A DNA stretch of 64,000 nt from Winslowiella toletana. Its GTDB lineage: Bacteria > Pseudomonadota > Gammaproteobacteria > Enterobacterales > Enterobacteriaceae. Of the stretch, positions 33,350-42,334 are shown in pieces. Location: positions 1,488,001 to 1,552,000 of the forward strand of contig NZ_JAGGMQ010000001.1 in NCBI RefSeq assembly GCF_017875465.1. The letters are read 5' to 3'. The notes beneath the pieces were generated by a model. The model did no database searches. It was not told where the DNA came from and saw only the letters and a program-made list of their open reading frames with translations. Positions within the stretch are counted from its first letter, which is position 1, and each line of letters starts with the position of its first letter. A program made the position numbers and the translations under genes.

Positions 33350-34201
33350 ATGAGCGCCAAAACGGTTTCGCTTGAAAGCCGCATTCGCCAGTATTGGGAT
33401 CAACTCTCCAGCCATGAACAGCGTCTGGCGGATGTGGTCCTCGCGGCGCCGGGTCAGCTGGCGATGAATACCGCCACGGAACTGGCGATCAGCGCCGGCG
33501 TATCGAAAGCCACCACCACGCGTTTTTTTCGCCACCTCGGTTATGAAAACTATGAAGAAGCGCGGCGCCAGGCGCGGGAAATGCAAAACAGCGGCTCACC
33601 ACTCTACCTGCAGGACTTTCAGAGCGGCTCGCCGCTGGATACGCTGATCCAGAGCCATCTGGAACGCGAGGTCGCCAATCTGGTTAACTCTTATCGCGCT
33701 CTTGATACGCAACAGCTGGATCAGGTGATCAGGACGATTGCCGGCGCGCGGCGCATTGTGCTGCTTGGCTGGCGTCACAGCCAGACCATCGCCGCCCTGA
33801 TGTACCGCGATCTGGTTCATGTGCATAACGATGTGCGCCTGCTGCCGCGCGCCGGGGATTCACTGGCGGAATATCTGGCCGCATTAGGGCCTGAGGATGT
33901 GGCGATCTGCATCGGCTTACGCCGCCGTATGCCAGCGCTGGAAGCGGCGATGAACGCCATGAGCGAACTTAAAGTACCGATGCTCTATCTCTCCGATGTG
34001 CTGCCCGGCAAAGCGGCAAAACAGGCGACCTGGGTGATTCGTTGCCATACTGACGGCAGCCTGATTTTTGACAGCACCGCCTCACTCTCCGGAGTATGTA
34101 ATCTGATCTGCTCGCTGGTGGCGCGTGAGCGCGGCAAAGTCAGCAACGACCAGCTGACGTTAATCGAATCGGTTCATCAGTGGCTTGATGAGCTGGAGTA
34201 A
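33350..34201 (+). CDS. RpiR/MurR family transcriptional regulator
   Basis: A 283-residue regulator with an N-terminal RpiR helix-turn-helix ('TATELAISAGVSKATTTRFFRHLG', about residues 44-67) and a C-terminal SIS domain (about 130-260) that would bind a phosphosugar-like or other ligand. It lies immediately upstream of, and co-oriented with, the six-gene DUF1989/ABC operon, but a hairpin, an NtrC-like site and a sigma-54 promoter separate them. It may regulate that operon or the divergent phosphatase. A GTAAACAAATGAG context precedes ATG. Confidence 0.85.
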   Translation: MSAKTVSLESRIRQYWDQLSSHEQRLADVVLAAPGQLAMNTATELAISAGVSKATTTRFFRHLGYENYEEARRQAREMQNSGSPLYLQDFQSGSPLDTLIQSHLEREVANLVNSYRALDTQQLDQVIRTIAGARRIVLLGWRHSQTIAALMYRDLVHVHNDVRLLPRAGDSLAEYLAALGPEDVAICIGLRRRMPALEAAMNAMSELKVPMLYLSDVLPGKAAKQATWVIRCHTDGSLIFDSTASLSGVCNLICSLVARERGKVSNDQLTLIESVHQWLDELE

Positions 34202-34249: not shown

Positions 34250-34266
34250 CGCACCATTTTAGTGCG
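34250..34266 (+). promoter_or_regulatory. candidate NtrC-binding site
   Basis: CGCACCATTTTAGTGCG fits the NtrC palindrome TGCACC-N5-GGTGCA in spacing and in most positions (GCACC-N5-AGTGC). It lies about 155 bp upstream of a sigma-54 promoter, a usual enhancer distance. Confidence 0.6.
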
Positions 34267-34410
34267 CAACAATGTTCCGCCGCCCCGTGCTTTTCACGCC
34301 ACATGAAACCAATGAAAAATAATTTTACGATAATGAAACACGTGTTTCTCGGTGATTCTTAAGGATTATTACTTTTCTCTGCCACTCCGCTGCCTGCTGT
34401 GCTGCATAAT

Positions 34411-34427
34411 CTGGCACGAAACCTGCC
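34411..34427 (+). promoter_or_regulatory. sigma-54 promoter of the DUF1989/ABC operon
   Basis: CTGGCACGAAACCTGCC matches the -24/-12 consensus YTGGCACGRNNNTTGCW apart from the first T of TTGC and the final base, with exact spacing. Predicted transcription starts near 34438, about 30 bases before the binding-protein ATG. With the upstream NtrC-like site it implies induction under nitrogen limitation. Confidence 0.75.
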
Positions 34428-34467
34428 TTACTCCTGATGTATCTCACCAACATCAGGGAACACCATA

Positions 34468-35313
34468 ATGAAAAAAATCACATTACTTATTGCTGCAGCT
34501 GCACTGCTCACCGCGGGATCCCTCAGTGGCTTCGCCCGCGCCGATACGCTGGCGGATATTAAATCCAGCGGCACCATGACCGTCGGCGTCGATCCTACCT
34601 TTCCCCCATATGAGTACACCAACGATAAGGGTGAAGTGGTGGGTTACAGCGCCGAAATTATGAAGTCAGTGGCCAAAGCGCTGGGCGTGAAACTGGAGTT
34701 TCAGAAGACGGCCTTTAGCGGCATCATTCCCGGCCTGATTTCCGGTTCCTTCCATGCTGAAGGCTCCTCGCTTAACGTCACTGCCGAGCGCGCGAAAAAA
34801 GTGCTGTTTACCGTGCCGTTCAGTAAAACCGTCAACGCCGTACTGGTACGCCATGACGAAGCAGGAAAATTCGCCAGCAAGCCGCTGAAGATTGAAGATC
34901 TTGCCGGTCTGCGCGGCGCCGCCAAAAGCGCCAGCGTGCCTGAGCAGCTGCTGAAAACCTTTAATGAAACGCTGCAAAGCAAGGGGCTGAAGCCGATCAC
35001 CATTATCAGCGTTGATACGCTGGATCAGACGGTCAGCACGCTGATGACCAAACGCGCCGACTTTGTGATCGACGATATCTCGGTGCTGGCGCCAGTGGTG
35101 AAGAAATATCCGGCAAAAGTGGCGCAGGTCGGCGACATCGGTCCGTCACAGTGGATGGCGTGGGCAACGCGTAAAGATGACAGCGCACTGAACAAAGCCA
35201 TCAGCGACCACATTCTGGCGATGCAGAAATCCGGCGAACTCGGCGCACTGCAAACGCAATATCTTGGCACCACCTTTACGGTTCCGGCCGACAACTTCAT
35301 TCCTCAGGAGTAA
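34468..35313 (+). CDS. ABC transporter substrate-binding protein (polar amino acid family)
   Basis: A 281-residue periplasmic binding protein (SBP_bac_3). The signal peptide is about residues 1-25 (MKKITLLIAAAALLTAGSLS...). The mature part begins with 'IKSSGTMTVGVDPTFPPYEY', the family hallmark, then 'GYSAEIMKSVAKALGVKLEF'. It would deliver a small nitrogen-rich solute to the two permeases downstream. It is the first gene behind the sigma-54 promoter; GGGAA precedes ATG. DUF1989 genes follow within 5 nt. The ligand is unknown. Confidence 0.92.
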   Translation: MKKITLLIAAAALLTAGSLSGFARADTLADIKSSGTMTVGVDPTFPPYEYTNDKGEVVGYSAEIMKSVAKALGVKLEFQKTAFSGIIPGLISGSFHAEGSSLNVTAERAKKVLFTVPFSKTVNAVLVRHDEAGKFASKPLKIEDLAGLRGAAKSASVPEQLLKTFNETLQSKGLKPITIISVDTLDQTVSTLMTKRADFVIDDISVLAPVVKKYPAKVAQVGDIGPSQWMAWATRKDDSALNKAISDHILAMQKSGELGALQTQYLGTTFTVPADNFIPQE

Positions 35314-35317
35314 GGCC

Positions 35318-35929
35318 ATGTGTCAGCATCATGTGCATGTTACCGCCGGGCACGGCCAGGCGTTTACTGTCCGTCAGGGGCAATATCTGACCATCATTGA
35401 TAGCGAAGGTCAGCAGGCTGCGGATTTTGTCGCGGTAAACGCGGCGAACCCGGCGGAAAAGCTGTCGCCAGTCCATACCCGCCAGCATCTGCGCTCGCTG
35501 TTCTTTAAGCCGGGTGATGCACTCTGGTCGAGCGAAAACCGCGCCATGCTGGAGATTATCGCCGACAGCATCGGCATTCACGATGCCAATGTTCCGGCCT
35601 GCGACCGCACCCGCTTTAGCATCGATTTCGGTGTCGAGGGGCATCGCAACTGCGTCGACAATATGCTGGAAGGGATGCGCGCTTACGGCGTGAATTACTT
35701 CACCCTGCCGGAGCCGTTTAACCTGTTCCAGAACGGTCCGGTTACTCCGGATGGCCGCATGGAAGTTACCGATCCCAACAGCCGTGCTGGCGATCGCGTC
35801 ACTTTCCGCGCGCTGTGCGATCTGATTTGCGCCGTCTCCTCCTGTCCGCAGGACATTATTCCGGGCAACGGTCTGCAGGTGACACCGATTGATATCCATA
35901 TTTCCGATACTCTGACCACTGAGGCCTGA
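35318..35929 (+). CDS. DUF1989 family protein A (UAAP-like)
   Basis: A 203-residue DUF1989 protein, of the group first named urea amidolyase-associated proteins. It carries 'GHRNCVDNM' (about residues 107-115) and 'AVSSCPQDI' near 180, cysteine/histidine motifs shared with paralogue C. DUF1989 pairs act as carboxyguanidine deiminase subunits (CgdAB) in guanidine degradation. I chose ATG 35318 with AGGAG upstream over an earlier in-frame start. No urea or guanidine carboxylase gene is present in the window. Substrate is inferred only as a guanidino- or urea-like nitrogen compound. Confidence 0.85.
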   Translation: MCQHHVHVTAGHGQAFTVRQGQYLTIIDSEGQQAADFVAVNAANPAEKLSPVHTRQHLRSLFFKPGDALWSSENRAMLEIIADSIGIHDANVPACDRTRFSIDFGVEGHRNCVDNMLEGMRAYGVNYFTLPEPFNLFQNGPVTPDGRMEVTDPNSRAGDRVTFRALCDLICAVSSCPQDIIPGNGLQVTPIDIHISDTLTTEA

Positions 35930-35930
35930 A

Positions 35931-36584
35931 ATGTTATTAATGAAAGAAGGCTTCACCAGTGAAGAAGCGCCACGTACTGTTGCCAGCACCGTTACCGTCG
36001 CGCCGGGAACCGCCGGTTCGATTCGCGTATTGCGCGGCCAGTTGCTGCGGATTACCGCGCTTGGCGACGGCGCCGTGGCATCGCTGTTTGGTTTCAGCAT
36101 TGCCGACCCGGCGGTCTGGCTGTCAGTGCATCACACCCGGGTATTCAGCAACAGCTATCTGCTCGGTTCCGGCATGCGTATGGTGAACAACCGCCGCCGT
36201 CCGATGATGGTGTTAGGTAAAGACAGCGTGCGGCGTCACGATCTGCTGCTGCCAGCATCTACCAGCGCATGGCTGGCGGAACGCGGCTACCACGGTCAGC
36301 AGGGCTGTGTTGAATCTCTGCACGCAGAACTGGCGCGCGTCGGTATGGTGGCGCCAAAGCTGCCGGATCCGATCAATCTGTTTATGCATGTCGATCTGGC
36401 GCGGAATGGCGATATTACGCCACAGCCCAATCTGACCAAACGCGGTGACAGCATTACCTGTCGCGTGGTGGTCGATACCCTGTTTATCGTTTCGGCTTGC
36501 TGTACCGGGATTGAAGGCAACGATCGCCCCGCCCCGCTCAGCCTGTCGGTGGCGGAAGATCTGACGGCTTTCCCGTCTGAGTGA
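35931..36584 (+). CDS. DUF1989 family protein B (divergent)
   Basis: A 217-residue DUF1989 protein whose gene begins just after that of A. It lacks the key pattern of A and C: instead of HRNC.DN it has 'HGQQGCVESLH', and instead of SxCPQD it has 'SACCTGIEGND'. It may therefore be the non-catalytic partner in a heteromeric complex, as one subunit is in two-component DUF1989 enzymes. That is inference. ATG 35931 and ATG 35940 are both possible starts. Confidence 0.8.
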   Translation: MLLMKEGFTSEEAPRTVASTVTVAPGTAGSIRVLRGQLLRITALGDGAVASLFGFSIADPAVWLSVHHTRVFSNSYLLGSGMRMVNNRRRPMMVLGKDSVRRHDLLLPASTSAWLAERGYHGQQGCVESLHAELARVGMVAPKLPDPINLFMHVDLARNGDITPQPNLTKRGDSITCRVVVDTLFIVSACCTGIEGNDRPAPLSLSVAEDLTAFPSE

Positions 36585-36591
36585 GGCAATA

Positions 36592-37242
36592 ATGTGGCTG
36601 GATGCGCAAGTCAGCGCCGGATTACCGGAGTTAGCCAAAGGGCTGCTGGTCACCCTCGAACTGACTGTGCTGGCGGCACTGTTAAGCCTGGTGCTGGGGC
36701 AGGCTGGTTGCTATCTGCAACTGCATCGTCGCCTGTTGCCGCGTCTGCTGGGACGGCTGTATATCAGCCTGATGCGCGGCACTCCGGCGATTGTGCAGCT
36801 GTTTGTGGTGTTCTTTACCCTGCCGCTACTCGGACTGGGCGGACAGCCGCTGCTGGCGGCGGTGATTACTATCGGTATGAACAGCGGCGCTTACGTAGCG
36901 GAGATTCTGCGCGTCAATCGCCGTCTGGTCACTGCGGGTCAGCTGGAAGCCTGCCGCACGCTGGGGCTGGGCCGCTTCCTGACCTGGTGGTATGTGGTGA
37001 ATCCGCAGGTGCTGCGCGCCAGCCTGCCAATGCTGGTCAATGAGTTCACTATCCTGCTGAAAACCACGCCGCTGGCCTCGGTGGTCGCATTAACCGAGCT
37101 GACCTATGCCGGGCAGATTGTCATTGCCCGCAGTTATGAAGCCACTCAGGTATTGCTGCTGGTGGCAGTGGGCTATCTGCTGATTGCGCTGCCGATGATT
37201 GGCCTCGCACGTTATCTGGAAGGCAAAGGGAGGTGGGCATAA
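36592..37242 (+). CDS. amino acid-type ABC transporter permease 1
   Basis: A 216-residue HisM/GlnP-family inner-membrane permease with about five helices. The cytoplasmic EAA loop that contacts the ATPase is 'GQLEACRTLGLGRFLTWWYVVNPQVLR'. 'SLMRGTPAIVQLFVVFF' is a family signature. It pairs with the next gene, whose ATG overlaps this stop (TAATG). No ATPase gene accompanies the pair. Confidence 0.9.
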   Translation: MWLDAQVSAGLPELAKGLLVTLELTVLAALLSLVLGQAGCYLQLHRRLLPRLLGRLYISLMRGTPAIVQLFVVFFTLPLLGLGGQPLLAAVITIGMNSGAYVAEILRVNRRLVTAGQLEACRTLGLGRFLTWWYVVNPQVLRASLPMLVNEFTILLKTTPLASVVALTELTYAGQIVIARSYEATQVLLLVAVGYLLIALPMIGLARYLEGKGRWA

Positions 37243-37907
37243 TGGACTGGCAGGCAGTTATCTCATCGGCGCCGTCGCTGTGGCAGGGATTACAAATCAC
37301 CCTGCAACTCTGTGTTATCGCCGCAATCTGTTCGTTACTGGCGGGAGCATTACTGGCGCTGCTGCTGATGCGCGGACCGCCGCTGCTGCAATCGCTGTTA
37401 CGTATCTGGACCGCCGTAACGCTCGGATTACCGCTGCTGGTGGTGATCTATCTGCTCTATTTTGTGCTGCCGGAATACGACATCACCTTCTCTTCGCCGG
37501 TGGTGGGCGTGCTGGCGCTGACGCTGTATTACGCGCCCTATATTGCCCAGGTGATTCGTGCGGCAATTGGCGCGTTGCCTGCTGGCCAGTGGGAGGCCTG
37601 CCGGGTGCTGGGGCTGGGCCATTTTCGTGCTATGAGCGACGTGGTATTGCCGCAAACCCTGCCGCAAATGCTGTCGCCGCTAATGGGTCTGCTGATTGGC
37701 CTGATTAAAGACTCGGCGCTGCTGTCGATTGTCTCGGTGCCGGAGTTTATGTACGAGGCGAAGCAGGCGATCTCCGCCACCTATGCGCCGCTGGAGATCT
37801 ATCTGGCTGTGGCGCTCTGCTACTGGCTGCTTAACACCTTTATCGATTTGCTGGCACGCCGCCTTGAACAGCGGATGACGCGTTACAGCCTGCGCGTGCC
37901 ACATTAA
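37242..37907 (+). CDS. amino acid-type ABC transporter permease 2
   Basis: A 221-residue permease of the same family, with EAA loop 'AGQWEACRVLGLGHFRAMSDVVLPQTL'. I chose ATG 37242, overlapping the preceding stop, with GGGAGGTGG upstream; a GTG at 37233 is in frame. With permease 1 and the binding protein it makes an importer that must borrow an ATP-binding subunit from elsewhere in the genome. Confidence 0.9.
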   Translation: MDWQAVISSAPSLWQGLQITLQLCVIAAICSLLAGALLALLLMRGPPLLQSLLRIWTAVTLGLPLLVVIYLLYFVLPEYDITFSSPVVGVLALTLYYAPYIAQVIRAAIGALPAGQWEACRVLGLGHFRAMSDVVLPQTLPQMLSPLMGLLIGLIKDSALLSIVSVPEFMYEAKQAISATYAPLEIYLAVALCYWLLNTFIDLLARRLEQRMTRYSLRVPH

Positions 37908-37920
37908 CCAGGAGAATAAT

Positions 37921-38601
37921 ATGACGACTACAACAAACTGCCGTGCTGAGCAGTTAATCCCCGCACGCCACGGCAAAGCGGTGTTTCTCGCCGCCGGTGA
38001 AGCGCTGCAGGTGATTAATCTGCACGGTACTCAGGTGGTGGATTGCTGGGCTTATAATGCCGCCGACGTCAGTGAATATATGTGTATGGAAGCGACGCGC
38101 GTGTGGAATCAGCGGCTTAATCCGCGCGTGGGCGACAGTTTTATCACCAATATGCGCCATCCGATTCTGACGCTGGTGGAAGACACCTCACCCGGCGTAC
38201 ACGATACCTTTATGGCCGCCTGCGATGCGCGTCGCTATGAGCTGCTGGGTTGCCGCGAGCCGCATCGTAACTGTCACGATAATCTGCATGAAGGTCTGGC
38301 GGCGCTGAATGTCACGCTGCCGCACGGCAATCTGGCGTCATTTAATATCTTTATGAATATTCAGGTGCAGCCGGATGGTATTACGCTGAAGACGCTGCCA
38401 ACCGTCACCCAGCCCGGCGATTATATTACTCTGCGCGCCGAGATGGACTGCTATGTAGCGCTCTCCGCCTGTCCGCAGGATATTGTCAGTATTCAGGGTC
38501 AGGGGGATAACACCCCGCGTGATGCGCAACTGCGTATTCTGACCGGTGGTTTCCCTGACGCCGTCGTGAAAGGGGCATGGGTGCCGGAAAAAAGCGCCTG
38601 A
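37921..38601 (+). CDS. DUF1989 family protein C
   Basis: A 226-residue DUF1989 protein, last in the operon. It has the same apparent active motifs as A: 'EPHRNCHDNLHEGL' near residues 117-130 and 'ALSACPQDIVS' near 180. 'DACDARRYELLGC'-like sequence precedes them. With AGGAGA upstream it is expressed with the ABC genes. The presence of two motif-bearing paralogues (A, C) and one divergent (B) in one operon is unusual for this family. Confidence 0.85.
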   Translation: MTTTTNCRAEQLIPARHGKAVFLAAGEALQVINLHGTQVVDCWAYNAADVSEYMCMEATRVWNQRLNPRVGDSFITNMRHPILTLVEDTSPGVHDTFMAACDARRYELLGCREPHRNCHDNLHEGLAALNVTLPHGNLASFNIFMNIQVQPDGITLKTLPTVTQPGDYITLRAEMDCYVALSACPQDIVSIQGQGDNTPRDAQLRILTGGFPDAVVKGAWVPEKSA

Positions 38602-38713: not shown

Positions 38714-40162
38714 TTAAGGTTTAAGCTGCCCGGCGCGGCTTACCGGCAGCTGATCCGCTGGCACCTCGACATTGAACTTCTCCAGTACCAGACCATGAAT
38801 TTTTTCCAGTGACACGCCCGCGGTTTCCGGCAGGAAGCGGTAAGTGAAGAAATACATACCCAGAGAGAAAATCGCGAACAGCAGCAGCGGGAAACCACCA
38901 TGGAACAGTTCCAGCAGGTAAGGATTGCTGTTCATAATCGGGAAAGTGGTGCTGATAATAAAGTTCGCCAGCGACATCATACAGATAGAGATACCAACGC
39001 AGACCGCGCGGATCTCCGTCGGGAACAGCTCACCCAGCACCGTCCAGACAATCTGCCCCCAGGTAATGCCGAAGAACACCATATAAGCGAACAGGCCGAT
39101 CACCGCCAGCATGCCCGGCAAATGGTAGTAGAAGGCGATAAACGAATAGGTAAGAAATACGCAGGAGGAGATCGCCCCCAGTAACAGCAGTTTGCGACGC
39201 CCGACTTTATCAATCATCGACATCCCAATTAATACGCCAATAAACTGACAGATCGACAGCCAGAAGGTCTGCAACAGCGCCGAGCCGGAGTCAGGAAATA
39301 CATTTTTCAGCAGCGAAGGACCAAAATATTGAATCACATTGATGCCGCTAATCTGGTTGCCGACTGCCAGACCGACACCGACAATCAGCAGTGGCACGGT
39401 GGTTTTATTAAAGCTGAAGCGGGTTTTATGACTGTTGGCTGCGGAGTGCTTGAGTGAAATTTTAATCTCATTGAAGACGCTCTGCGCATGCTCAGCATTG
39501 GAGATTTTGGTCAGGGTATCCAGCGCCGGTTTCTCACGCCCTTTCAGCATATTCCAGCGTGGTGATTCCGGAATAAACAGAACAAACAGAATAAACAGCG
39601 CGCAGGGCAGCAGCGCGGTGGCCAGAATATAGCGCCAGCCAGTATCGACCATCGCCTCTGCCGCCATAAACTGGTGAATATAGTAGTTAGTCAGCAGCAC
39701 CACGCACTGACCGCCAACGCAACAGACCGAATAGAGCGCGGTGGTGCGCCCACGGAATTTCGAGGGTGAAAGCTCGGCAAGATAGATCGGTGAAATCACC
39801 GAAGCCAGCCCAATCGCCAGCCCGCCGAGCATGCGGGCGATGACAAAGACGGTAAAGTTATGCGCGATAACCGTTCCCACCACCGAGACAGTAAATACCA
39901 GCGCGGTAATGGCGAGGGATTTTTTACGCCCCAGCTTGTCACTGAGTTTCGGCGCGATAAAGCACCCTATCAGACTGCCCAGCAGGATATTCGACACCGC
40001 CCAGCCGGTTTCTGCCGGAGAGAGCCGGAAATGTTCACTGAGCGGTTCAATTGCCCCGGAGATAATCGAGGAGTCATAGCCCAATAGCAGCCCGCCAAAG
40101 GCCGCCACCGTACAGCAGAGCATGACGTACTTCATGTTGTAACGCGTTTTCCTGGTATCCAT
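38714..40162 (-). CDS. MFS sugar porter family transporter
   Basis: A 482-residue twelve-helix sugar porter. Motifs: 'LLLGYDSSIISGAI' in helix 1, 'DKLGRKKSLA' after helix 2, 'PESPRWNMLKG' after helix 6, 'GNQISGINVIQYFGPSLL' in helix 7, 'DKVGRRKLLL' after helix 8 and 'PETAGVSLEKI' after helix 12. It resembles arabinose, xylose and galactose symporters, but the substrate is not clear. It is divergent from the UPF0303 gene. It lies near sugar-oxidising genes, so a sugar substrate is plausible. Confidence 0.88.
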   Translation of the reverse strand: MDTRKTRYNMKYVMLCCTVAAFGGLLLGYDSSIISGAIEPLSEHFRLSPAETGWAVSNILLGSLIGCFIAPKLSDKLGRKKSLAITALVFTVSVVGTVIAHNFTVFVIARMLGGLAIGLASVISPIYLAELSPSKFRGRTTALYSVCCVGGQCVVLLTNYYIHQFMAAEAMVDTGWRYILATALLPCALFILFVLFIPESPRWNMLKGREKPALDTLTKISNAEHAQSVFNEIKISLKHSAANSHKTRFSFNKTTVPLLIVGVGLAVGNQISGINVIQYFGPSLLKNVFPDSGSALLQTFWLSICQFIGVLIGMSMIDKVGRRKLLLLGAISSCVFLTYSFIAFYYHLPGMLAVIGLFAYMVFFGITWGQIVWTVLGELFPTEIRAVCVGISICMMSLANFIISTTFPIMNSNPYLLELFHGGFPLLLFAIFSLGMYFFTYRFLPETAGVSLEKIHGLVLEKFNVEVPADQLPVSRAGQLKP

Positions 40163-40467
40163 CTTGCTGGCCCTTATCGCTGTTCTCTGACCCGCTTTGC
40201 GGTCAAAAATGACATGATTGTTATGAGCATGTGCCCGCAGGTTGCAGAATCCTGAACTGGAATATATTTTCTAAATTATTAAATATCGAATTATTTATTC
40301 TTGATATGTGAGCCGGTTAAAATTATTTTTTTACCAGCAAAGTGAGGGGGAGACAGAAAAAAGCGGACATTACCAGCAGGTTAAGCGATTGTGATGAAGA
40401 TCATATGCAAAATATTTTTTTTGATGATAAATTTATTGAAAATAAAATTTCATCATTAAGGATGCTT
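40163..40467. other. divergent control region of the MFS and UPF0303 genes
   Basis: Three hundred bases with an AT-rich centre. An imperfect palindrome TGACCCGCTTTGCGGTCA is at 40188-40205 near the MFS start, a possible operator. No further gene or RNA is visible. Confidence 0.35.
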
Positions 40468-40935
40468 ATGTCTGATGCTCTCGCGCCTGCCCTGTTGCTG
40501 CAACAGGAAGCAGACAGCCGTCTGCGCCATTTTGATTTTCAGTCAGCCTGGCGGCTGGGCCAGCTCATCCAGGCACGCGCCGCTGAGCAACAGTTACCAG
40601 TGGCGATTGAAGTCTACGCTTTTGGTCAGCAACTGTTTCTCGCCGCCCTGCCAGGTTCCGCCGCCAACAATCTGGAGTGGATGCGACGCAAGCGCAATAC
40701 CGTGTTGCGCTATGGCAACTCGTCAATGTATGTCGGGGTAATCAATACGCAAAATGGCGAACCGATGGCGATCCAGTCGTTTATTAATCAGTATGATTAT
40801 ACTGACCATGGTGGCGCCTTCCCGCTGCTTAATCAGAGTGGCGCGGTGATAGGGGCGGTCAGCGTCAGTGGCCTGCCCTCGGCAGACGATCATGCCCTGG
40901 CGCTATGGGGGATCCGTCAGTTACAGCAACGCTGA
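40468..40935 (+). CDS. UPF0303 family protein (heme-degrading domain-like)
   Basis: A 155-residue protein of the UPF0303/COG4702 group ('heme-degrading domain' in many annotations). Conserved parts are 'AWRLGQLIQARAAEQ', 'LPVAIEVYAFGQQLF', 'DNLEWMRRKRNTV'-like sequence, and 'HGGAFPLL...GAVIGAVSVSGLP' at the C-terminus. I chose ATG 40468 because AAGGA precedes it; the frame extends upstream to 40342. The biochemical role is not established. It probably shares a transcript with the amidohydrolase 49 bases downstream, though a REP-like palindrome intervenes. Confidence 0.75.
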   Translation: MSDALAPALLLQQEADSRLRHFDFQSAWRLGQLIQARAAEQQLPVAIEVYAFGQQLFLAALPGSAANNLEWMRRKRNTVLRYGNSSMYVGVINTQNGEPMAIQSFINQYDYTDHGGAFPLLNQSGAVIGAVSVSGLPSADDHALALWGIRQLQQR

Positions 40936-40944
40936 TTCTGCACA

Positions 40945-40962
40945 GGCGGCGTAAACGCCGCC
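40945..40962. repeat. REP-like palindrome between UPF0303 and amidohydrolase genes
   Basis: GGCGGCG and CGCCGCC around TAAA, 9 bases after the UPF0303 gene stop. It is a member of the dispersed family. Confidence 0.7.
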
Positions 40963-40984
40963 CTTCCCTGTTTATCCGGAGCTG

Positions 40985-42334
40985 ATGATGTATTCAAAAC
41001 GATTGTTACTTCTCCTCATCTTGCTGTGCAGCTTTCCAGGCATAGCGGCGACTAACGACACCCTGCTAATCCGCAATGGCTATATCCTCACCATGAAAGC
41101 TGGCGAGGCAGATTTGCAGGATGCCGATTTACTGATCCGCGGTAATCAGATCGCCCGGATCGGCAACGATCTGGCGGCGCCCGGCGCACAAGTAATTAAT
41201 GCTAAAGGAAAAATGGTGCTGCCCGGTTTTGTTGACGCGCACTCGCATCTGTCAGTCACCACCATGCGCGGTCAGTTTCGCAACCAGCAGGGTAAGTTTT
41301 TCCCGGTCAGCAACCGCCTCGCGCAGGTGATGCAACCCGATGATATCTATACCGCCATGTACAGTGGCGCGCTGGAACTGTTGCAGGGCGGGATCACCAC
41401 CAGCGGCGATTTCTTTGACAATATCCAGGGGCCAGCCTGGGGCGATGCGGGATTTAAAGCACTGAAACAGAGCGGTATTCGCGCGATAATGTATTACGGC
41501 GGACCGGACAAAACCACCAGACAGCCGATCGATCTTAAACATCTTGCCACCCTGACGGCGCAGGAGGACGAGCGTGTACAGCCGGGACTGGCCTGGCGTC
41601 TGCCGCGCGACCTGAACGATCAGAGCAACTGGACACTACGCAAACAGGAGTATCAGTTTGCTCAGGCGCATAAACTACCGCTACAGGTTCATGTCAGCGG
41701 CGATGCCGACGCGATGTTTAACGCATTAATTCGCGGCAACTACCTTAATCCATCGATGACGGTAGTCCATGCCACCGACGCCACACCGCAGCAGCTGGCG
41801 GCACTGGAAAAGGCTGGCGGCAGCCTGGCGCTGACGCCACTCAGTGAACAGCGCGTTGGTTACGGCCTGACGCGGCTCGACCATTTCAGTACGGTGACGC
41901 GTCAGGGACTGGGGATCGACGGCAACTCGCTGGCGGGCAGCGCGGATATGTTCGCCAGTATGCGCCTGCTGGCTCTGACGCTCAGCGGCGCGACAACCGA
42001 CGAAACCCGTCCGCAGCCGCGCCAGTTGCTGGAACTGGTAACGCGTCGTGCGGCGCAGACGCTCGGACTGGGGACGATTACCGGCACGCTGGAGAGCGCT
42101 AAACGTGCCGATGTGCAGATTATTAATCCACAGGCGCTGAATATGAGCGGTTTTGCTGGCGGCGATCCGGCGGCGTTTATTGTTTACTCGGCCAGACCAG
42201 AAAATGTCGAGACAGTGATTGTCGATGGCAAAATAGTAAAACATCACGGTGAAATGCAGGGAATCAATATGGCTGAGGTGTTAAGCGAGGCACAGCAATC
42301 TGCCGAAAGTATGCGGCAACGCGCAGCAGATTAA
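40985..42334 (+). CDS. exported amidohydrolase family protein
   Basis: A 449-residue metal-dependent hydrolase of the ATZ/TRZ-type amidohydrolase superfamily with an N-terminal signal peptide (residues 1-22). Metal ligands: HSH at 86-88, His236 in 'LQVHVSGD', His262 in 'VVHATDA' and Asp312 in 'GIDGNS'. The glutamate usually found three residues after the third histidine (HxxE) is missing. Periplasmic location would set it apart from cytosolic deaminases. It may act on a compound taken up by neighbouring transporters. The substrate is unknown. GGAG lies before ATG. Confidence 0.82.
   Translation: MMYSKRLLLLLILLCSFPGIAATNDTLLIRNGYILTMKAGEADLQDADLLIRGNQIARIGNDLAAPGAQVINAKGKMVLPGFVDAHSHLSVTTMRGQFRNQQGKFFPVSNRLAQVMQPDDIYTAMYSGALELLQGGITTSGDFFDNIQGPAWGDAGFKALKQSGIRAIMYYGGPDKTTRQPIDLKHLATLTAQEDERVQPGLAWRLPRDLNDQSNWTLRKQEYQFAQAHKLPLQVHVSGDADAMFNALIRGNYLNPSMTVVHATDATPQQLAALEKAGGSLALTPLSEQRVGYGLTRLDHFSTVTRQGLGIDGNSLAGSADMFASMRLLALTLSGATTDETRPQPRQLLELVTRRAAQTLGLGTITGTLESAKRADVQIINPQALNMSGFAGGDPAAFIVYSARPENVETVIVDGKIVKHHGEMQGINMAEVLSEAQQSAESMRQRAAD

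Follow-up and report, generated by a model that had tools for sequence, protein, structure and literature searches.

A 64,000-nucleotide stretch of the 5.3-Mb genome of Winslowiella toletana (hereafter the window) contains an operon of six genes that encode the binding protein and two permeases of an ATP-binding cassette (ABC) importer together with three DUF1989 proteins, here called A, B and C. The operon is a real, conserved system, placed under nitrogen control by its promoter sites, and three lines of linkage (adjacent allantoicase genes, a purine cluster and the gene content of the genomes that carry it) tie it to ureide metabolism. We propose, as a reading that is plausible although somewhat less than probable, that it is a nitrogen-starvation operon for the uptake and hydrolysis of a guanidino- and/or ureido-acid that feeds the purine-ureide (allantoate) pathway.

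A single scan of genome contigs, with C as query, returned 77 loci, the gene content of which was counted by tblastn. The first-pass annotation of the window had called for a genome search for this gene order, and the same order was found in 54 of the 77 loci, spread over gamma-, beta- and alphaproteobacteria. These type I loci (28 from Enterobacterales or Vibrio, four from Pseudomonas, 19 betaproteobacterial and three alphaproteobacterial) have the arrangement binding protein-A-B-permease-permease-(ATPase)-C plus an RpiR gene, which stands beside the operon in 52 of them, the remaining two (L039 and L047) being truncated by contig ends. The upstream RpiR/MurR-family regulator, absent from the earlier gene list, is part of the conserved array. 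The other loci comprise an importer-linked group of 13, in which C neighbours an importer most like HpxFGHI (54-66% identity per subunit in seven loci; 45-46% to HpxF in the six SAR116 loci), six type II loci [ureohydrolase-binding protein-permeases-ATPase-ureohydrolase-C'-(A-B in two of the six)-C] and four that fall into none of these groups.

The sigma-54 promoter lies 56 bases 5' of the start codon of the binding protein. Matches of at least nine of 12 letters, 11-120 bases 5' of the gene, occur in 47 of 52 upstream regions as against 2.8% of 2,080 dinucleotide shuffles, and the NtrC-like palindrome occurs in 32 of the 52 as against 5.5%, so that both sites, already recognized in the first-pass annotation, are beyond chance. 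The 52 regions are those of the window and of 51 of the 54 type I loci; L039 and L047 (contig ends) and L057 (missed by the gene caller) were left out.

An allantoicase gene lies directly behind C in 13 loci (two of the four from Pseudomonas and 11 of the 19 from betaproteobacteria). The gene content of the carriers was assessed in two author-chosen sets. The first comprised the Winslowiella genome itself (left out of the allantoicase test) and those of 30 of the 77 loci, the second the genomes of 26 loci, for ureidoglycolate lyase (AllA) only. The operon allantoicase of L038 scores 413.9 bits against TIGR02961 (cut-off 277.9), and the operon copies of eight first-set genomes also pass; each of these eight genomes also holds one or two additional allantoicases. 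A tree of 30 allantoicases places the operon copies from Pseudomonas with paralogues of that genus and those from Burkholderiales with paralogues of that order. A single clade of operon copies is rejected by the approximately unbiased test (p-AU 5.4e-6), and allantoicase has therefore been recruited beside C at least twice.

In one SAR116 genome that was followed further (L070, continued in L110), C is embedded in a purine-to-ammonia cluster with xanthine dehydrogenase-like genes (by eye), 8-oxoguanine deaminase (612 bits, cut-off 532), urate oxidase, allantoicase, a hydantoinase-family gene, urease, an HIUase-like gene (by eye), OHCU decarboxylase and a ureidoglycolate lyase that matches PF04115 and falls under the NCBIfam cut-offs. 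Among the other five SAR116 loci, the dehydrogenase part is present in L066, L069 and L074 and not in L064, and L067 stops at C.

The type I genomes of the first set hold either HpxJ (11) or AllA (14), never both, which together accounts for 25 of 25. As background, 38 of 217 Enterobacterales carry HpxJ (at least 50% identity), among them 10 of 15 from the family of W. toletana, and 27 of 200 Burkholderiales carry AllA. HpxJ was found in all ten operon-positive Enterobacterales or Vibrio genomes tested (W. toletana and those of nine of the 28 loci) and AllA in three of the four SAR116 genomes tested. The hydantoinase/carbamoylase family TIGR01879 was discarded as a discriminating marker, being too common (30 of 31 genomes).

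All three DUF1989 proteins are members of PF09347 (A 175.9, B 121.1 and C 157.9 bits; cut-off 27), and Pfam gave no second domain in any of them. The motifs noted at first pass are as described: HRNCVDN and SSCPQD in A, HRNCHDN and SACPQD in C, and neither in B. Alignment shows that the three-cysteine metal site is kept in A and C and gone from B, as it is from UAAP1; the cysteines are at least 95% conserved among 55 sequences of A and 71 of C. According to PMC12560246, the three cysteines bind zinc in trimethylamine N-oxide (TMAO) demethylase and in solved DUF1989 structures. C was modelled with AlphaFold2 (predicted local distance difference test, pLDDT, 89.7), and Foldseek with this model gave nothing at E <0.001 besides the DUF1989 structures 3siy, 3oru and 3di4. 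C shares its fold with 3siy/3oru (TM1040_0329; 42% identity to 3siy) and 3di4 (SPO0365), all deposited without a function. DUF1989 is a large family: of 3,791 candidates, 3,622 are relatives of C (E 0.001 or better). In the tree, A, B and C fall outside the UAAP1-UAAP2 pair, on long branches.

Wherever A and B are in view, in 55 loci, they are neighbours, and the other 22 loci show neither. C stands without them in 21 of the 77 loci (the cut type I locus L047 not counted; some of these contigs are short). Of the two complexes envisaged in the first-pass annotation, A-B is thus likely, because the two are never apart, and C-B is unlikely, because C is often found without them. By their residues, A is probably the catalytic subunit with B as its degenerate partner, and C is probably a separate metalloenzyme.

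Table 1. Control sites and genes of the operon, with positions in the window.
Feature	Position	Strand	Basis
NtrC-like palindrome CGCACC-ATTTT-AGTGCG	34250-34266	.	Sequence; conserved among upstream regions
Sigma-54 promoter (-24/-12) TGGCACG-AAAC-CTGCC	34412-34427	+	10/12 consensus letters
RpiR/MurR-family regulator (HTH_6 + SIS)	33350-34201	+	Pfam PF01418, PF01380
Polar-amino-acid-type binding protein	34468-35313	+	SBP_bac_3, PF00497, 114 bits
DUF1989 A, probable catalytic subunit, Cys95/Cys112/Cys176	35318-35929	+	PF09347
DUF1989 B, degenerate partner without three-cysteine site	35931-36584	+	PF09347, 121 bits
Amino-acid-type ABC permease 1	36592-37242	+	PF00528 (BPD_transp_1), TIGR01726
Amino-acid-type ABC permease 2	37233-37907	+	PF00528 (BPD_transp_1), TIGR01726
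DUF1989 C, separate probable metalloenzyme, Cys101/Cys118/Cys184	37921-38601	+	PF09347

The gene positions and Pfam matches (Table 1) bear out a tight array of six co-directional genes; permease 2 has a GTG start and its 5' end overlaps permease 1. The importer lacks an ATPase gene, as the first reading had it, with the binding protein and permeases present and no ATPase in the operon. At E 1e-20 or better, the window has ABC ATPase matches only in the two halves of one 543-residue protein at 57.8-59.5 kb, which have 36% and 34% identity to the betaproteobacterial operon ATPase. All 22 beta- or alphaproteobacterial type I loci carry an ATPase gene between permease 2 and C and none of the 32 gammaproteobacterial ones does, which marks its absence here as a feature of the lineage and not damage. 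Among paralogues of the missing ATPase in the same genome, the top two (58% and 54%) were rejected as partners in trans, each lying beside its own binding-protein and permease genes; the HpxI-like ATPase ranks 12th among these paralogues (51%).

The nearest solved structure to the binding protein is AncQR. Asp42, Arg108, Asp202 and Asp203 are at least 95% conserved among 52 sequences, and Arg108 and Asp203 have counterparts in the alignment with AncQR, an Arg and an Asp that we take to be of the type that binds carboxylate and amino groups. Since the binding protein keeps an Asp that HpxF, by eye, seems to lack, its ligand is probably an acid other than that of HpxF, with an amino or guanidino group near the carboxylate.

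Related clusters suggest a link to guanidino compounds. Two ureohydrolase genes flank the importer in all six type II loci; the three ureohydrolases scanned (that of L073 and both of L060) fall under the agmatinase equivalog cut-off. The context of more distant relatives was taken from 14 loci in genomes and from eight of 49 plasmid records (in L140, L142 and L147, C escaped the gene caller). In L143, L145 and L158 (Caballeronia), relatives with 44-48% identity to C accompany a polar-amino-acid-type (PAAT) importer, an M20 enzyme and an agmatinase-like gene, a gene order that suits a predicted conversion from guanidino through ureido to amine. The M20 enzymes beside relatives of C belong to the allantoate amidohydrolase/carbamoylase family. 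L153, on a Klebsiella plasmid (identity in the same range), has the M20 enzyme and no agmatinase-like gene, and L146 (41% identity to C) shows a similar pattern with a divergent M20 gene. In the tree, L143, L153 and L158 form a clade beside C; L145 is 84% identical to L158, and L146 is not in the tree. Among the remaining plasmid regions, L154 is of type I, L160 resembles type II and four differ.

From these observations we infer a substrate, a deimination, a division of labour between A-B and C and an ATPase acting in trans. The operon would be switched on in nitrogen starvation through NtrC and sigma-54, together with the RpiR-family regulator. The binding protein would capture a small carboxylic acid that has guanidino groups, ureido groups or both, and the two permeases would move it into the cell, in gammaproteobacteria with the help of an ATPase acting in trans. 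A and its degenerate partner B might then act like the carboxyguanidine deiminase CgdAB, turning a guanidino into a ureido group with release of ammonia, with C as a separate enzyme for a related step. The product would join the purine-ureide pathway around the level of allantoate, ureidoglycine or ureidoglycolate, and HpxK/HpxJ or allantoicase/ureidoglycolate lyase would finish the breakdown. The nitrogen control, import and hydrolysis of a nitrogen-rich compound suggested at first pass fit the data; deimination remains conjectural, and the ureide link and the ATPase of the relatives had been missed.

Two other nitrogen loci lie elsewhere in the same genome, so the operon is a third, separate system. 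An hpx-type cluster (L136; G000:C1:3447000-3466000) holds an RpiR regulator, an importer, an aminotransferase, an M20 hydrolase, OHCU decarboxylase, HIUase, an amidase and a gamma-glutamyltranspeptidase-type gene; its hpx gene names are our presumption, given after the Klebsiella cluster and Pfam. A guanidine locus (L006) combines a urea carboxylase-family gene (1812 bits) with a UAAP1/UAAP2 pair and a guanidine-I riboswitch. A further region, L152 (4021-9596; G000:C1:3484000-3494000), with an importer, two polysaccharide-deacetylase-like proteins and an MmgE/PrpD-like protein (by eye), is possibly another cluster for nitrogen compounds.

The literature searched on DUF1989, UAAP1, allantoicase and allantoate import contained no published account of the operon. 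The hpx allantoate cluster is under nitrogen control; in Klebsiella pneumoniae it is said to comprise hpxFGHIJK and hpxU, reportedly from work by Guzman and co-workers in 2013. Cluster and operon alike combine an RpiR-family regulator with a polar-amino-acid-type ABC importer, but where the cluster has the aminotransferase HpxJ and the M20 enzyme HpxK, the operon has DUF1989 proteins and no ATPase; genes for ureidoglycine aminotransferase and allantoate amidohydrolase are absent from it. Against the homologues in its own genome, the operon binding protein has 23% identity to HpxF and the regulator 32% to the HpxU-like regulator.

Another parallel, in make-up, is CgdAB (UAAP1-UAAP2), named as a carboxyguanidine deiminase in the part of PMC12186494 that cites Schneider et al. 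(2020). Both it and A-B pair a three-cysteine DUF1989 subunit with a degenerate one beside an ABC importer, for a nitrogen-rich substrate that in the case of A-B is presumed; unlike CgdAB loci, the operon has no carboxylase and no guanidine riboswitch, and the proteins lie in separate tree clades (on long branches). That the operon is an ordinary guanidine or urea assimilation operon with its carboxylase elsewhere could be argued from the DUF1989 family and from the urea carboxylase-family gene in the genome, but this idea is already largely refuted and we regard it as extremely unlikely. With that carboxylase as query, no match over more than half its length was found in the 77 loci, in agreement with the earlier remark that the operon contains none. 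The first-pass annotation had named a carboxylase acting from elsewhere as the case that would overturn its reading; the gene does exist, but it has its own UAAP1/UAAP2 pair and guanidine-I riboswitch and therefore needs no partner from the operon. A, C and B also miss the cut-offs of TIGR03424/TIGR03425 (130.6 and 87.9 against 284.7, and 59.5 against 205.95 bits), which the UAAP2 and UAAP1 of the same genome exceed as positive controls (323.7 and 273.4 bits), and no riboswitch family reaches its Rfam gathering score in the window, whereas L006 as a control yields guanidine-I with 83.9 bits. A demethylase acting on N-oxides or N-methyl groups is another candidate that we consider very unlikely. 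The TMAO demethylase Tdm (9q59, 9q5l, 9q5a) likewise has a DUF1989 domain with three zinc cysteines, as set out in PMC12560246, and A and C resemble that domain (9q59). On NF053776, however, A (150.7 bits), C (96.5) and B (45.1) remain far below the TMAO demethylase cut-off of 1100; they are single-domain proteins without a GcvT domain and so are not members, and their neighbours, ureide and guanidino genes, differ from those of Tdm.

Several findings weigh against the proposed uptake and hydrolysis of a guanidino- and/or ureido-acid. The tree does not group B with UAAP1 (again with long branches), so that A-B resembles CgdAB in make-up and not by descent. The Arg and Asp of the binding protein would also suit an ordinary alpha-amino acid. 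AllA was found in just six of the ten type I genomes of the second set, the four without it (L037, L047, L052 and L056) all being metagenome-assembled genomes in an AllA-only test, and in three of six type II genomes. Allantoicase was found in none of nine operon-positive Enterobacterales or Vibrio genomes tested and AllA in none of these nine plus W. toletana, so that these organisms would need the Hpx route. The M20-agmatinase pattern occurs in only three of the 14 further loci and an M20 gene in two of the eight plasmid regions; where placed in the tree, the proteins of these loci form a sister clade and not C itself. The genomes compared are related and not independent, and co-occurrence may partly reflect kinship or lifestyle.

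Two other explanations share much of this evidence. A-B and C might act directly on allantoate, ureidoglycine or ureidoglycolate with no guanidino step, as a non-homologous replacement for AllC, AllE or AllA. Against the proposal and in keeping with such direct hydrolysis, AllA is missing from six of the seven genomes in which C lies beside the closer HpxFGHI-like importer; the allantoicase behind C and the allantoate amidohydrolase-family M20 enzymes beside its sister clade point the same way. We nevertheless judge it unlikely, since it leaves unexplained both the paired ureohydrolases and the retention of HpxJ or AllA in 25 of 25 first-set operon genomes, and since the W. toletana genome already holds an hpx-type allantoate cluster. 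Alternatively, the operon could serve the catabolism of alpha- or omega-guanidino amino acids such as 4-guanidinobutyrate, guanidinoacetate or canavanine, the ureide tie reflecting a shared lifestyle and an allantoicase paralogue with a changed function. The amino-acid-type ligand residues of the binding protein and the ureohydrolases and carbamoylase-type M20 enzymes of related clusters would agree with this, which we hold to be unlikely, if not strongly so; two separate allantoicase recruitments and the SAR116 purine cluster are hard to blame on lifestyle.

On the 3' side of the operon (38714-42334), the window continues with an MFS sugar transporter (38714-40162, minus strand), an HbpS-like protein and a TRZ/ATZ-type amidohydrolase. 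These were excluded as members of the system, being found behind the operon elsewhere only in L007, the close relative Winslowiella arboricola (Erwiniaceae; C 94% identical). Both L038 and L045 are from one genome, Paraburkholderia xenovorans LB400, which has two full type I operons on chromosomes 2 and 3, each including ATPase and allantoicase genes. A megablast search of Escherichia coli genomes gave no DNA match. At more than 60% identity, W. toletana itself was the only carrier among 217 Enterobacterales, and one more (85%) was found among 398 Pseudomonadota; a phylogenetic profile test was abandoned because carriers are too few in these order-wide and phylum-wide samples.

Further DUF1989 contexts were encountered. 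Directly behind the type I operons of L042 (9033-13038) and L053 (7043-11111) lie a second PAAT importer and a 284-residue DUF1989 protein similar in length to 3di4 (SPO0365). In L155 (5614-8573), L159 (7887-10815) and L156 (7902-11015), relatives of C stand by an amidase or TRZ/ATZ-type amidohydrolase and a polysaccharide-deacetylase-family gene weakly like the allantoinase PuuE, with a cytosine permease near one of them; these clusters possibly serve the ring opening of N-heterocycles. The PAAT importer-M20-DUF1989-cupin cassette of L153 (5658-11221; NZ_CP062999.1) is flanked by insertion sequence elements and looks like a mobile nitrogen-scavenging module. Relatives of C occur in 18 more Klebsiella plasmid records, the cassette region having been read in one record.

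We know of two characterized activities for DUF1989. A bolder extension of our proposal, which we rate as decidedly unlikely, is that the C type is a new and widely exchanged family of ureide-catabolism metalloenzymes, that the A-B pair arose apart from UAAP1/UAAP2 and that together they convert guanidino analogues of allantoate, such as 2-guanidino-2-ureidoacetate from oxidized guanine, to allantoate; a literature search on guanidinohydantoin returned only work on DNA glycosylases. If true, oxidized-guanine waste would become a nitrogen source. The ties of the C branch with allantoicase, an HpxFGHI-like importer and a purine cluster yield a short list of candidate substrates. Pantoea, Rahnella and Paraburkholderia, with their relatives, include many plant-associated bacteria, and the operon suggests a nitrogen-scavenging route for them.

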